From Oscillospiraceae bacterium (lineage in GTDB: Bacteria; Bacillota; Clostridia; Oscillospirales; Oscillospiraceae): 56,296 nt of DNA. Positions 1,538 to 7,251 of the stretch are shown piece after piece. Each line of letters opens with the position of its first letter. Position 1 is the stretch's first letter. The stretch covers positions 1 to 56,296 of the forward strand of contig JAFQGT010000021.1 in the NCBI GenBank assembly GCA_017415425.1. Reading direction: 5' to 3'. The position numbers and the translations under genes are program-made. Under the pieces are notes generated by a model. That model was not told the DNA's origin. It was given only the letters and a program-made list of their open reading frames with translations, and did not search any database.

Positions 1538-3343
1538 TTATGCAAGAATCTTCGCGGTGGTTTCGTCTTCGTACTGGCGGGTGTACAGTTCGTAATAATA
1601 GCCGTGAAGCTTCAGCAGCTCAGAGTGGGTACCTTGCTCCACAATCCGGCCATTTTTGACTACCAAGATCATGTCGGCGTTCCGTACGGTAGAAAGTCGG
1701 TGGGCGATCATCAGGCAGGTTCGGCCTGCGGTAACACCTTCCAGTGCAGATTGGATTTTTGCTTCTGTGAGCGTGTCCACGGAAGCCGTGGCCTCGTCCA
1801 GTATCAATATCTTTGGGTCTGCCAAAATGGCCCGTGCAAAAGAAATCAGCTGCTTTTCACCGGTGGAGAGCAGGTCGCCGCCCTCACCCACATCTGTATC
1901 CAAGCCCTTTTCCAGATGGGCGATGACATCCTCCGCGGAAACGGCGCGGATCGCCTGCCAAATTTGATCCTCTGTTGCATTGGGATTGCCCATCAGCAGG
2001 TTTTCCCGTACCGTGCCTGAGAACAGATGAGGCGTTTGCAGCACATAGCCGATAGAAGAATGGAGCCAAAGCTGGCTGCGCTCCCGCGCATCAGCGCCGT
2101 CAATCAGCACCTGACCCTGGGTAGGCTCGTAGAACCGGCATACCAAGTTGACCAAGGTGGATTTTCCCGCACCGGTTTCGCCAACGATGGCCAAGTGTGA
2201 GCCAAAGGGGACTTTCAAAGAGAAATGCTCCAAAACAGTTTCGTCACCATCGGGATACCGGAAGGTTACATCTTTGAATTCAATGTCGCCTTTCAACTCT
2301 TCCCAGTTTTCCTTTTTGGGATTGAGCATATCGCCGTACTTTTCCACCACCTCCGGTGTGTCTACCACATCGGATTTTACCGCCAGCAAATCTGTGAAAC
2401 GCTCAATGTTGACTTGGGTGGTAATCAGATCGGAAATAATGTCCACCAGCCACCGCAGGGGTTCCATCATGCCCTGCGCATAGGACATAAAGACGGAGAA
2501 CGTACCCAGCTCTTCCGTGGCAATGTAGCCGCCTTTCCACAACACGATGGCCAGGGCAACACTGGATGCCAGGTTCATAGTGCCGGCAAACAAGCCCCGA
2601 AGACGGGAAGCCTGGACGCTCTTTTTTCGCATATTCTGGGTTTCCTCTGTGAAACGGGATTCAATCTTCTCCTCAATACCCAGAGACTTGATGGTTTTGG
2701 CACCGGTAATGCCTTCGTTGAAATTGCTGGTGATTTGGGAGTTGATTTCCCGCACCTCCCGGTTGACGCCGATCAGCCGCTTCTGGAAAATGGCATAAAG
2801 CACCGTCAATAGCGGCAAAATGGACAGAACCATGGCTGCTAGCTTCGGATGCAAAACAATCATAACAACAATGGCACCGATCAGGTAGCTCATACGCCAC
2901 ACGCAGTCTACCAGTGTCCAGGACACCAAACTGCCGATGCGGGAGGTGTCACTCATAAGCCGGGCATGGATGTAACCAACACTGTTTTGGTTGAAATACG
3001 AGAAGGACAGGGTCTGCAGATGGTTGAAGCCCAGCTGCCGCAATTCCCGGTTGGTTCGCATTTCGATGATGATAGCCAAAGCGCAGGAAATGTAATTGGA
3101 TACAGCCGCAACCAAAATGGTCAACAGGTACAGCACTACAAATATCGCAATGGTGTCGAATACACCCATGCCTACATAATGATCCAGGGCGTACCGCTGA
3201 AACAGGGGCAGGATGATGTCCGTTAAGCTTCCTGTCAGGCCGAAGAAAACCATGGCGGCAATCGGCTTTTTCAGCTTGGAAAGGTAGGGGGTGATCCTGC
3301 CAATCCCAAAGAATTTCAGATGTTTGTTCTTTTGCTTCGGCAT
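1538..3343 (-). CDS. ABC exporter half-transporter, second subunit of a heterodimeric multidrug-type pair
   Basis: A 601-residue half-transporter: an N-terminal six-helix exporter domain (about 20-320) and a C-terminal ATPase. Walker A is GETGAGKST (388-396) and Walker B ILILDEA carries the catalytic Glu 517. The ABC signature reads LSTGEKQ (492-498) instead of LSGGQ. The partner upstream has an intact signature but Asp in place of the catalytic Glu, so together they form one normal and one degenerate ATP site. That is the hallmark of heterodimeric exporters such as BmrCD, LmrCD and TM287/288. Its ATG shares one base with the stop of the upstream gene (TAATG) and GGAGGTGACC precedes it, so the two are translationally coupled. 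Drug export is the likely role; the substrate is unproven. Confidence 0.88.
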   Translation of the reverse strand: MPKQKNKHLKFFGIGRITPYLSKLKKPIAAMVFFGLTGSLTDIILPLFQRYALDHYVGMGVFDTIAIFVVLYLLTILVAAVSNYISCALAIIIEMRTNRELRQLGFNHLQTLSFSYFNQNSVGYIHARLMSDTSRIGSLVSWTLVDCVWRMSYLIGAIVVMIVLHPKLAAMVLSILPLLTVLYAIFQKRLIGVNREVREINSQITSNFNEGITGAKTIKSLGIEEKIESRFTEETQNMRKKSVQASRLRGLFAGTMNLASSVALAIVLWKGGYIATEELGTFSVFMSYAQGMMEPLRWLVDIISDLITTQVNIERFTDLLAVKSDVVDTPEVVEKYGDMLNPKKENWEELKGDIEFKDVTFRYPDGDETVLEHFSLKVPFGSHLAIVGETGAGKSTLVNLVCRFYEPTQGQVLIDGADARERSQLWLHSSIGYVLQTPHLFSGTVRENLLMGNPNATEDQIWQAIRAVSAEDVIAHLEKGLDTDVGEGGDLLSTGEKQLISFARAILADPKILILDEATASVDTLTEAKIQSALEGVTAGRTCLMIAHRLSTVRNADMILVVKNGRIVEQGTHSELLKLHGYYYELYTRQYEDETTAKILA

Positions 3344-5148
3344 TACTTGGTCACCTCCTGAATACCGCTTTGGGCTTCGTAGATTTTCTGATAGATACCT
3401 CCGGCGGTTTTCAGTTCGTCGTGGGTACCTTCTTCTGCAATGCGTCCGCCATCCAGCACAATGATCTTGTCAGCTGCGGAAAGGGTAGTAATTCTGTGGG
3501 AAATCAGGATCACACTGGCTTTACCAAAGCGCTGCTGAATGGCTTGGCGGATTTTGGCATCCGTTTGGGTATCCACGGCGGACAGGGAATCGTCAAAGAT
3601 CAAAATGGGGGTATCATTAACCAGCATACGGGCAATGGCGGCGCGCTGCTTTTGTCCGCCGGAGAGGGTAACGCCTCGCTCGCCAACCATGGTATCGTAA
3701 CCGGCGGTGAAGGAGGTAATGGATTCGTCCAGGGCGGCAGCCTGAGCCGCAGCACGGATCGCCTCCATATCCAGTTCGGGTGATGCGATACCGATGTTTT
3801 CTGCAATGGTGCGAGAGAACAGATAAGGCTCCTGCAGCACCATACCAATATTGCGGCGCAGATGAGCGGTGCGAATCTGGCGAATGTCTGTACCGCCGAT
3901 GGTAATTCTTCCGCAACCCTCCTCCAGGGGATACAGCTTATCCAGAAGCAGCATCAATGTGGATTTTCCGCTGCCGGTGCCACCCAAAATGCCCAAGGTG
4001 GTGCCCGCTTTCATTGTAAAATGAATATCGTGGAGAATCTTGGGGCTGTTTTCATAGGCAAAGCTGACATGCTCAAAACAGATATCCCCGTCCATTGGGG
4101 CATCCACGGCATCCGGCGCATCCTGCTCCACAGGAGAATTCATAATGTATGCCACCCGGTCGATGGATACGCCAGCCTTACTCAGCTCGGAGATCATCCG
4201 GCCCAGCTGGCGAATAGGCCACACCATCATGGAGTTGTAGGAAATAAAGGCAATGTATTCACCACTGCGCAGATTTCCACGGACACAGAAGTACGCACCG
4301 AAAATCACAACAAGCATGATCTGAACGCCGGAAAGGATATCCGAAATACTCCAGAACCGGGACAAGGTTTTGCCCATTTTCTCCCACAGAGAAGTATAGT
4401 GGTCGTTTTGCGTTCCAAACTTCTTGATCTCCGCCCGTTCCTGACCAAAGGCACGAACCACCCGAACACCGGTCAGATTTTCCTGCGCCATAGCAGAAAG
4501 CTTTCCCTCGCTTTCGTCGCAGGCTTCAAATCCGTCATGGACCTGATTGTGAAAGTGGAAGGAATACACGATGATGATCGGGGTGGGAATCAATGCAATC
4601 AGCGTCAGCAAAGGGTGCATGGAGAGCATAAAGGTGATGGATAGAACCAGCAGCAGAGCTATGCGGAAAATGGCGGTCAGCTGTTCGGACAAGAAGTTTT
4701 TGGTGGTGTCAATATCCGATGTGCAGCGCTGAATGATGTCGCCGGTGCGGTTCTTCATATGCCAGGAAAAGGGTAGATGCTGGATGTGGGAAAACAGCTG
4801 ATCCCGCATGGTCTTTACCAGAGTTTCCGATGCTTTGGTATTGTACACACGGAAGGCATACTGAGATACCACCTGTACCAACGCAACTGCCAGTACAGCC
4901 AGAGCCATGATCCACAAATGCTGACCCAGGTAGGCAAAGCCGCCGACGCGGTCTACCAATTCCATTACAAAGGCCGGGAAGTCTCCTTCCTCACCACCCA
5001 GGGCACAGTCCACAGCGGCACGGATGATTTGGGGCTGCAGCATATCCGCCAGAGCGGTGATGCCGGCAGCTGAAATTGTAATTAGAAAATAACGCTTGGC
5101 ACCTTTCAAAAAGCGCCACAGCAGGGAAATCGTTTGTTTTTTCTTCAT
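3343..5148 (-). CDS. ABC exporter half-transporter, first subunit of a heterodimeric multidrug-type pair
   Basis: A 601-residue half-transporter with six N-terminal membrane helices and an ATPase domain. Walker A is GGTGSGKST (389-397), the signature is a normal LSGGQ (495-499), and Walker B ends IFDD, with Asp 520 where the catalytic Glu should be. This marks it as the subunit giving the degenerate nucleotide site of a BmrC/TM287-like heterodimer. The start at 5148 is chosen because GGAGA lies 7-8 nt upstream. An in-frame ATG at 5178 sits directly behind a terminator U-run and has no ribosome site. The gene is first in a two-gene operon whose leader contains a short peptide and an intrinsic terminator, so expression is probably controlled by attenuation. 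Confidence 0.88.
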   Translation of the reverse strand: MKKKQTISLLWRFLKGAKRYFLITISAAGITALADMLQPQIIRAAVDCALGGEEGDFPAFVMELVDRVGGFAYLGQHLWIMALAVLAVALVQVVSQYAFRVYNTKASETLVKTMRDQLFSHIQHLPFSWHMKNRTGDIIQRCTSDIDTTKNFLSEQLTAIFRIALLLVLSITFMLSMHPLLTLIALIPTPIIIVYSFHFHNQVHDGFEACDESEGKLSAMAQENLTGVRVVRAFGQERAEIKKFGTQNDHYTSLWEKMGKTLSRFWSISDILSGVQIMLVVIFGAYFCVRGNLRSGEYIAFISYNSMMVWPIRQLGRMISELSKAGVSIDRVAYIMNSPVEQDAPDAVDAPMDGDICFEHVSFAYENSPKILHDIHFTMKAGTTLGILGGTGSGKSTLMLLLDKLYPLEEGCGRITIGGTDIRQIRTAHLRRNIGMVLQEPYLFSRTIAENIGIASPELDMEAIRAAAQAAALDESITSFTAGYDTMVGERGVTLSGGQKQRAAIARMLVNDTPILIFDDSLSAVDTQTDAKIRQAIQQRFGKASVILISHRITTLSAADKIIVLDGGRIAEEGTHDELKTAGGIYQKIYEAQSGIQEVTK

Positions 5149-5179
5149 TTTCGTTCTCCGTTTCTCAATTTTAGGCATG

Positions 5180-5209
5180 AAAAAAGGGCGCAGGCGGAAG
5201 CCTGCACCC
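5180..5209 (-). terminator. Intrinsic terminator (attenuator) in the ABC exporter leader
   Basis: On the minus strand GGGTGCAGGC (5209-5200) pairs with GCCTGCGCCC (5195-5186) across a TTCC loop, giving 10 bp with one G-U pair, followed directly by TTTTTT (5185-5180). It lies downstream of the promoter and leader peptide and about 30 nt before the exporter start codon. It therefore controls read-through into the operon rather than ending an upstream gene. Confidence 0.85.
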
Positions 5210-5234
5210 TCAAAAAACGCAGCAAAGCAAAAGC

Positions 5235-5294
5235 CTATACTGACAGTAAAGGAGCAATACTTCCGGTATGGATCATAGTAACATTCATCAACAT
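5235..5294 (-). CDS. 19-residue leader peptide of the ABC exporter operon
   Basis: A short frame encoding MLMNVTMIHTGSIAPLLSV ends in TAG 25 nt before the attenuator stem. It has a strong Shine-Dalgarno, AAAGGAG, 9 nt before its ATG, and starts about 28 nt after the predicted transcription start. The Shine-Dalgarno segment AAAGGAGCAAT (5310-5300) is exactly complementary to ATTGCTCCTTT (5258-5248) inside codons 13-16 of the same frame. Ribosome position on the leader would therefore decide which RNA structures form. By analogy with bmrB in B. subtilis, the peptide is probably a sensor of ribosome stalling by antibiotics; this is inference. It is too short for ordinary gene finders. Confidence 0.68.
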   Translation of the reverse strand: MLMNVTMIHTGSIAPLLSV

Positions 5295-5310
5295 ATCTAA
5301 TTGCTCCTTT
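5248..5310 (-). promoter_or_regulatory. 11-bp inverted repeat that can sequester the leader-peptide ribosome site
   Basis: AAAGGAGCAAT at 5310-5300 and ATTGCTCCTTT at 5258-5248 are perfect complements 41 nt apart in the leader RNA. The first arm is the leader Shine-Dalgarno and the second arm is coding. A translating ribosome would open this stem and a free RNA would close it. Confidence 0.72.
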
Positions 5311-5328
5311 CTTTCATAATTTACCAGT

Positions 5329-5357
5329 ATCATAGCACCGCCTTACCGCGCTGTCAA
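5329..5357 (-). promoter_or_regulatory. Consensus sigma-A promoter of the ABC exporter operon
   Basis: On the minus strand TTGACA (5357-5352), a 17-bp spacer and TATGAT (5334-5329). Transcription should begin near 5321, leaving a leader of about 170 nt before the first exporter gene. Confidence 0.8.
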
Positions 5358-5363
5358 GGGATT

Positions 5364-5388
5364 GTTCGTGACCGTTACGGTTCGTAAC
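5364..5388. promoter_or_regulatory. Candidate operator between the divergent ABC exporter and XRE regulator promoters
   Basis: GTTCGTGAC (5364-5372) and GTTCGTAAC (5380-5388) are direct repeats 16 nt apart flanking CGTTACG. The segment 5374-5388 is also a perfect palindrome, GTTACG-gtt-CGTAAC. It sits just upstream of the exporter -35 box and about 20 nt upstream of the regulator -35 box, which suits binding by the adjacent helix-turn-helix protein. Binding is not shown. Confidence 0.55.
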
Positions 5389-5438: not shown

Positions 5439-5470
5439 GGTGAAAGTTGAGCCGAGAGGAGGTAGAGAAA

Positions 5471-6043
5471 ATGACTCTGGGCGAAAAAATCAGAGAAGCC
5501 AGACGAAAATGCGGATTGTCCCAAGAGCGGCTGGCGGAAAAAATGTCCGTATCCCGATCTGCGATTGCCAAATGGGAAACAGATAAAGGCTTACCGGATG
5601 TGGGGAATCTGAAGGTCTTGGCACGACTTCTGAATGTCAGCGTAGACCATCTGCTGGATGAGGCGGAGACTGTAGACGACCTAGTCATTAGGGAACCGTA
5701 TAACCTTGCTGCTTACGGCTATGGCTGCAGCAAGGTCAAAAAAGATCGGGTCGTACGGGATAAATTCCCAGATGCAACAATTTATCCTTTGCTTGGCCGG
5801 CAGGATGTCGCCAGTTTGGAACTACACGTGGACAACACGCCGGACTGTCGGTCAAATCCATTGGACCGGGTGAAGAACACAGATAAAGCATTTTATTTGA
5901 TAGAAAAGGACGATCAAGAATTACTTGTGATGGTGACTGACGTCTTCATAGAAATCCGTCCCATGGAACAGTCTTTGGAAAGAAGCAGTTTTCGTATTGG
6001 TGGCTGGAACTTTATAAAATGCAATTACGAAATTGGAAAATGA
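5471..6043 (+). CDS. XRE-family helix-turn-helix transcriptional regulator with an unknown C-terminal domain
   Basis: 190 residues from the ATG at 5471, which has GAGGAGG 9 nt upstream. A longer frame from TTG 5447 has no such site. Residues 1-60 are a Cro/C1-type domain: GEKIREARRKCGLSQERLAE, then the recognition helix VSRSAIAKWETDKGLPD and KVLARLLNVSVDHLL. Residues 75-190 resemble no family I can name. They are mixed alpha/beta, with several strands near the end (VTDVFIEIRP, SFRIGGWNFIKC). The gene diverges from the ABC exporter and shares a 110-nt control region with it, so it probably regulates the exporter and itself. The C-terminal part may bind a ligand or simply dimerise. Confidence 0.8.
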   Translation: MTLGEKIREARRKCGLSQERLAEKMSVSRSAIAKWETDKGLPDVGNLKVLARLLNVSVDHLLDEAETVDDLVIREPYNLAAYGYGCSKVKKDRVVRDKFPDATIYPLLGRQDVASLELHVDNTPDCRSNPLDRVKNTDKAFYLIEKDDQELLVMVTDVFIEIRPMEQSLERSSFRIGGWNFIKCNYEIGK

Positions 6044-6079: not shown

Positions 6080-6089
6080 ATACAATAAC

Positions 6090-6119
6090 AGCGTGGTTGA
6101 TCTCCTGATCAACCACGCT
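6090..6119. repeat. Perfect 12-bp hairpin downstream of the transglutaminase gene
   Basis: AGCGTGGTTGAT (6090-6101) is perfectly complementary to 6108-6119 around a CTCCTG loop. It lies 11 nt past the end of the minus-strand transglutaminase frame. On that strand it is followed only by GTTATTG, so it would be a weak terminator at best. It may end that transcript or be a small palindromic element. Confidence 0.6.
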
Positions 6120-6130
6120 AAGTAATACCG

Positions 6131-7055: not shown

Positions 7056-7089
7056 GTGGTCGTACAGAGGGGTAACTCTGTACGACCAC
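7056..7089. repeat. Perfect 14-bp hairpin between the transglutaminase gene and tRNA-Arg
   Basis: GTGGTCGTACAGAG (7056-7069) is fully complementary to 7076-7089 with a GGGTAA loop. It lies 41 nt before the broken transglutaminase start. On the minus strand it is followed by TTCTTCGTTTC, so it could be a second, weak terminator behind the tRNA or a structured 5' leader. No copy of it was noticed elsewhere in the window. Confidence 0.6.
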
Positions 7090-7174: not shown

Positions 7175-7251
7175 TGGTACGCCGAAAGGGACTCGAACCC
7201 CCGACCTACTGGTTCGTAGCCAGTCACTCTATCCAACTGAGCTATCGGCGC
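7175..7251 (-). tRNA. tRNA-Arg (anticodon ACG)
   Basis: The minus strand from 7251 folds as a cloverleaf: acceptor GCGCCGA pairs with TCGGCGT, D-loop AGCTCAGTTGGATAGAG, anticodon stem CTGG/CCAG around CTACGAA (anticodon ACG), and T-arm GGGGGTTCGAGTCCC. The 3' CCA is encoded (7177-7175). The first pair is G-U. A34 would be deaminated to inosine to read CGN arginine codons. Confidence 0.95.

Follow-up and report, generated by a model that had tools for sequence, protein, structure and literature searches.

The window, a 56,296-nt stretch of DNA from an Oscillospiraceae bacterium, carries a two-gene ABC exporter operon on its minus strand. The first gene (3343-5148) encodes a BmrC-like subunit of 601 aa counted from an ATG at 5148, which, with GGAG just upstream, is the likely start; a longer version of the frame begins at 5178, within the tail of the terminator described below. 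The second gene (1538-3343, minus strand) encodes a BmrD-like subunit. Walker B ends in DD (a degenerate ATP site) in the first subunit and in DE, accompanied by the signature LSTGE, in the second, a pair of motifs that we take to mark exporters having one degenerate ATP site. When each gene was compared with solved structures, the highest-scoring bacterial chains among the best 60 were Bacillus subtilis BmrC (YheI, 8t1p_C) and BmrD (YheH, 8t1p_D), respectively; eukaryotic ABCB proteins outscore them. A contig of the same genus (G022) encodes a protein that is 97% identical, and the arrangement recurs in relatives. These matches bear out the heterodimeric ABC exporter proposed in a preliminary description of this DNA. 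By best match, gene order and motifs the exporter appears BmrCD-like, with drug transport as its putative function.

Several other features lie around the operon. An ORF converging on it (110-1471) reads, from its translation, as a GNAT acetyltransferase-methyltransferase fusion. Upstream of the region, at 6089-6120, 7056-7089 and 7178-7251, lie a tRNA gene and strong hairpins resembling terminators. A palindrome, GTTACGAACCGTAAC (5374-5388), sits between the leader promoter and a divergent HTH_3 gene (5447-6043) and is possibly an operator for the product of that gene.

The leader precedes the exporter on the minus strand. Its promoter, TTGACA-17-TATGAT with an extended -10 TG (5329-5357), has 11 of 12 consensus matches, and a simple pattern search finds a similar promoter in 10 of the 11 loci of the window's clade (clade A). 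Downstream lie a strong Shine-Dalgarno (SD) sequence, AAAGGAGCAAT (region 1, 5300-5310), and an ORF of 19 codons plus stop (5235-5294) that runs from an ATG at 5294 to a TAG at 5237-5235 and encodes MLMNVTMIHTGSIAPLLSV. Codons 13-16 contain ATTGCTCCTTT (region 2, 5248-5258), the exact 11-nt reverse complement of the SD. Promoter, frame, SD and complement are all present as the preliminary description had them. It had also recognized a GC-rich terminator stem followed by a U tract; this stem (5211-5184) has 12 pairs rather than 10 and begins 23 rather than 25 nt from the leader stop. By predicted fold, its 5' arm (region 3) occupies 5200-5211, and the loop, the 3' arm (region 4, 5195-5184) and the U tract fall within 5180-5199. 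An SD-bearing leader ORF before an intrinsic terminator, the general layout of a ribosome-mediated attenuator, is therefore present upstream of a putative drug exporter whose best bacterial match and motifs are those of a BmrCD-type heterodimer.

The leader RNA (5322-5170) folds at -53 kcal/mol (z -5.7), with 0 of 200 shuffles as good, and the pairing between its SD and ORF is matched in 0.5% of dinucleotide and 1.5% of codon-order shuffles (200 of each). Region 1 is predicted to form the 5' arm of an anti-antiterminator, and region 2 is predicted to pair with either region 1 or region 3. At gathering score, Rfam returned tRNA only from the window and 18 leader loci, with no family match to the leader.

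Complementarity between the SD and distal codons in orthologous leaders

We collected 179 regions upstream of exporter orthologues, drawn from 119 of 139 loci scoring above 400 bits and from 60 of 67 further places without a locus; the named contigs among the sources are mostly titled as gut metagenome assemblies, the collections overlap, a few contigs are present twice, and three regions are shorter than 300 nt. A unit consisting of an SD, an ORF of 10-60 codons and a terminator occurs in 47 of these regions (45 of the units being distinct), and the other 132 of the 179 contain no such unit by this rule. For L007, the leader is absent from the stretch read. Because the ORF of each unit was picked by lowest pairing energy, which biases the choice toward pairing, we ran ORF shuffles on all 45 units. 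Dinucleotide shuffles that pair as well make up no more than 5% for 35 of the 45 and no more than 1% for 27; with codon-order shuffles, the share stays within 5% for 32.

A long pairing between regions 1 and 2 (1:2) defines a class of 36 of the 45 units, made up of the 37 with an energy of -15 or lower and an anti-SD no more than 30 nt away from the stop codon, minus L195. The latter has an energy of -20, but 45% of its dinucleotide shuffles are as good; it is still included in the 2:3 duplex test, the folding of 37 leaders and the swapped- and shuffled-arm test below. Eight further units were left out for weak or misplaced 1:2 pairing, the energies of excluded units other than L195 ranging from -5 to -16. 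Four of the 36 leaders (L003, L008, L010 and L144) miss the 5% level with codon-order shuffles. Across the class, the ORF is 19-45 codons long, as opposed to the 3-4 codons of vmlR- and cplR-type uORFs; the loop between SD and anti-SD has a median of 41 nt (33-119), the distance from stop to terminator a median of 26 nt (13-64), and the pairing includes the first letters of the start codon in 21 of 36 leaders.

The preliminary description had proposed aligning orthologous leaders for peptide conservation. The reading frame is kept in relatives; the peptides themselves diverge widely, as MLMNVTMIHTGSIAPLLSV, MTKMMTMTQFSLSEFVCAPDVPRV, MNRFAKNERNRLPGERWILRAHFG and MNGIVLKKDFVSQGMMGAFGLIF illustrate, and every ORF still pairs with its own SD. 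Two of the 36 peptides (L141 and L151) start with MIN, like the vmlR uORF (MIN), possibly by chance.

A sequence that does recur is F/L/I/V-A-P, in clade A and in many peptides of a second set of leaders (set 2, below). It could be read as a nascent-peptide arrest motif near the end of the peptide that stalls the ribosome, which then blocks the terminator, as suggested by the precedent of tlrB, for which a drug-dependent arrest motif is described (PMC6851288). However, A-P is the product of GCU CCU-type anti-SD codons and sits where the anti-SD sits; in leaders whose SD differs, the residues at this place differ too. The codon phase of the anti-SD core also varies, each of the three being represented (17, 13 and 4 of 34 leaders), and a ribosome on the last codon would be out of reach of a terminator lying a median of 26 nt past the stop. 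Peptide arrest is thus highly improbable as the mechanism. The leader peptide is not conserved apart from the RNA pairing, and therefore it is probably not the sensor.

Predicted sequestration of the terminator arm by a ribosome at the start codon

The preliminary description saw no single clear antiterminator pairing. We propose one, in which the anti-SD codons are predicted to pair with the 5' arm of the terminator (2:3). Among the 11 leaders of clade A, helices 1:2 and 3:4 are together 90.8% paired, and helix 2:3, which is exclusive of both, is 88.2% paired, each value being reached by 0 of 500 shuffles; these leaders are related to one another, and one aligned member, L001, served as the template for drawing the helices, a choice that favours them. 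Two of five covariation measures for the clade-A 2:3 helix are unexceptional, with 283 and 195 of 500 shuffles as high. Over all families, grouped into 24 clusters, neither the plain 2:3 duplex compared with swapped partners (374 of 2000 permutations as good) nor the longest word common to SD and terminator arm (1127 of 2000) is significant. In leaders belonging to neither clade A nor clade B, the partner of the terminator arm often lies in the middle of the ORF or in the linker instead.

These results bear on another arrangement, in which SD sequestration does no more than limit translation of the leader, the terminator damps expression constantly, and regulation is exerted from elsewhere, for example by the divergent HTH gene. 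The lack of significance of the 2:3 duplex over all families is consistent with such an arrangement, as is the combination of a divergent HTH_3 gene and the palindrome GTTACGAACCGTAAC, an exact copy of which precedes the promoter in 4 of the 11 loci of clade A. The exact palindrome is missing, however, from the other 7 loci, all of which retain the leader, and clade A retains the mutually exclusive 2:3 helix. We regard a constant damper as quite improbable and consider further the 2:3 switch.

To examine it by folding, we folded the nascent transcript as far as the loop of the terminator, kept the ribosome footprint unpaired and computed the cost of freeing region 3. In this kinetics-free model, which assumes one footprint throughout (-15 to +16), the mean cost over 37 leaders was 4.6 kcal/mol without a ribosome and, with a ribosome in place, 9.9 for the start codon, 5.9 for codon 5 and 6.2 for the stop. 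Sequestration of region 3 with the ribosome at the start exceeded that without a ribosome by more than 0.5 in 36 of 37 leaders, and exceeded that with the ribosome at the stop in 30, the reverse holding in 6. In the start state it was greater than for swapped arms (Wilcoxon p 1.2e-4) and for shuffled arms (p 3e-5) over 24 clusters; L144, L195 and L197 are among the leaders whose arm is not exceptional against its own shuffles. Mutually exclusive terminator and antiterminator structures are thus predicted for the window's clade by the percentage paired and over all families by constrained folding.

A scan along the codons of 36 leaders gave a mean of 4.5 kcal/mol without a ribosome, 9.9, 9.9, 9.7 and 8.0 at codons 1 to 4, and about 5-6 from codon 5 onward. 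The window leader shows 11, 11 and 9 at codons 1-3, then 4 or less through codon 15. The maximum falls at codons 1-4 in 26 of the 36 leaders and at a later codon in 10, and these 10 would suit attenuation of the bmrB kind, in which translation slowed anywhere along the ORF, not specifically at its start, favours the antiterminator. The exporter type and gene order, which are the same as those of bmrCD, would suit it as well, and several ribosome-targeting drugs act on bmrB in its published description (PMC4191407). Against it, mean sequestration drops to about 5 kcal/mol from codon 6, and set 2 agrees; the drop is explained by the SD becoming free again to re-pair with region 2. Slowing at any position is therefore an unlikely trigger. 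The folds instead predict an anti-antiterminator broken by a ribosome at the uORF start, as in vmlR- and cplR-type leaders.

Leaders of the same family before other genes

With covariance models of the window clade (R1) and of a broader group (R2), we searched 136 same-genus genomes, among them the window's; two chance matches were excluded from alignment A3 through a stricter threshold. R1 matches 49 of the 136 genomes at E <= 0.01 and R2 matches 49 at E <= 0.001, with bare terminators included among the weak matches. The window's own genome has a single match, the exporter leader copy. Five of 20 R1 matches without loci are not leaders: L259 has no start codon, and L262-L265 are terminators only.

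A leader ORF is present in 33 of 34 further matches examined (set 2), the exception being L285. The 33 include five near-copies (L266 and L278-L281), three leaders preceding BmrCD-type orthologues (L212, L214 and L215) and two from other genera (L220 and L221). Their ORFs are 19-29 codons long in 33 of 33, though 10-60 were allowed, while ORFs of 18-30 codons occur in 0 and 2 of the 33 in the other two frames. In 31 of 33, shuffles that pair as well amount to 5% or less (L253 and L282 being the exceptions). The mean cost of freeing region 3 is 4.2 without a ribosome, 8.0 at codon 1, 7.4 at codon 3, 4.6 at codon 6 and 5.2 at the stop; the start value of 8.0 is a modest excess over the 6.5 of shuffled arms, and the arm lies above the mean of 10 shuffles in only 25 of 33. 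Many set-2 peptides end in Arg, and in L248, L249, L251, L258, L261, L284 and others a small CCCG...CGGG-like hairpin, seen by eye, spans the stop codon and is perhaps a pause hairpin.

The genes behind these leaders are diverse. A second type of ABC exporter follows L250 and L253, by Pfam, and L213, L216, L218, L219, L255, L260, L266, L278-L281 and L283, by reading of translations; in L253, L255, L260 and L266 a further ABC-like ORF comes next. Pfam also identifies GNAT acetyltransferases (L249, L256, L267), S66 peptidases (L254, L257, L282), a methyltransferase (L251), a histidine phosphatase followed by APH (L248), PNP_UDP_1 (L217), GrpB (L252), a metallophosphoesterase (L258), Nudix-HIT (L261) and an ABC ATPase (L220). 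The Pfam scan returned no family for the gene downstream of L284; the gene downstream of L221 is cut by the contig end. Behind L286, the first long ORF (GNAT) begins about 470 nt on. Genes of these types often serve to modify or export small molecules, and their presence favours a drug as the signal rather than the sensing of amino acids.

Beyond the genus, R1 matches 77 of 300 genomes in a family-wide search at E <= 0.05. We take these to be mostly chance terminators, because the scores are weak and four of the 14 matches inspected (L222-L225) were judged by eye to be non-leaders. In an order-wide search, R2 matches 3 of 394 genomes, the window's among them.

Discussion

Sequence features, covariation and predicted energies together indicate that the region is probably a transcription attenuator that senses a ribosome stalled near the start of its leader. 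In a leader without a ribosome, the SD would pair with the distal codons, leaving both terminator arms free and the exporter off. During normal translation, the ribosome would cross region 2 and reach the stop, which lies 23 nt short of the terminator; the terminator would form, the SD would then close, and the exporter would again be off. A ribosome frozen by a drug on the first codons (1-3 in the window leader, 1-4 on average) would cover the SD and free region 2, which could capture region 3 as it emerges, so that RNA polymerase reads through and the exporter is on. This would explain the use of the SD as a pairing arm, since the SD is hidden only until the ribosome moves on. That the switch works in vivo, that antibiotics are its signal, and which antibiotics these are, we infer; the candidates would be drugs that halt ribosomes at initiation or very soon after it (lincosamides, pleuromutilins, streptogramin A and tetracycline).

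The preliminary description took this to be the logic of bmrB with a shorter peptide. The general scheme holds, in that a leader ORF and a terminator precede a heterodimeric exporter with the same gene order and transcription attenuation is predicted, but the leader is not simply a shortened bmrB. The terminator and both alternative structures of bmrB lie inside its 162-nt ORF, at nucleotides 60-162; the role of its anti-antiterminator is called unclear, and the main text never mentions a Shine-Dalgarno sequence (PMC4191407). In the window, by contrast, the terminator stands beyond the end of the ORF, and the anti-antiterminator is predicted to have the SD as its first arm. These distinctions, like those from vmlR and cplR, rest on published descriptions rather than on sequence or fold.

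The switching logic appears to resemble that of vmlR and cplR more than that of bmrB. As described for B. subtilis vmlR, a three-codon uORF lies in a bulge of the anti-antiterminator, with its SD single-stranded before it; a stall on the uORF frees the antiterminator, and the SD and start codon of the uORF are required (PMC9226507). The window leader likewise has its uORF within the predicted anti-antiterminator, and a stall there is predicted to free the antiterminator. Unlike in vmlR, the SD itself pairs, an ORF of 19-45 codons carries the partner strand, and the target is an ABC exporter rather than an ABC-F protein. In Clostridioides difficile cplR, for which retapamulin and lincomycin are the reported inducers, a 5' hairpin sequesters the uORF in the off state and gives way to an antiterminator in the on state (PMC10201436), much as predicted here; that description differs in its three-codon uORF (MRI), in a terminator that also hides the main SD, and in an ABC-F target. 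Escherichia coli toiL-topAI is described as sensing start-codon-stalling drugs, tetracycline and retapamulin, through a uORF, but its targets are Rho and the translation of the following gene rather than an intrinsic terminator (PMC12121999). For tlrB, the published account gives an arrest motif and does not identify an overlapping antiterminator (PMC6851288). LmrC is another drug-sensing uORF (PMC8546547), and a 2010 survey names ABC leaders in other groups (PMC2965389). The new feature is that, in the predicted structures, the SD itself is an anti-antiterminator arm with its partner inside the ORF. In searches of the open-access PMC literature, no title or abstract opening described an anti-antiterminator formed between the SD of a leader and the distal codons of that leader.

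The leader may also be a transferable sensor of start-codon occupancy that is independent of the peptide, a proposal we advance tentatively and hold to be somewhat short of probable. On this proposal, one design placed, within a single genus of gut Oscillospiraceae, before two types of exporter and many enzymes that modify small molecules would amount to a dispersed drug-response regulon without a protein regulator.

The analysis supplies a concrete and testable switching structure for this locus. An SD complementary to the last codons of its own leader, together with a terminator, offers a marker for drug-responsive genes in uncultured gut bacteria. If the proposed mechanism is true, drugs that stop initiation would turn on exporters and modifying enzymes in some gut commensals, and genes of unknown function behind such leaders would be candidates for detoxification.
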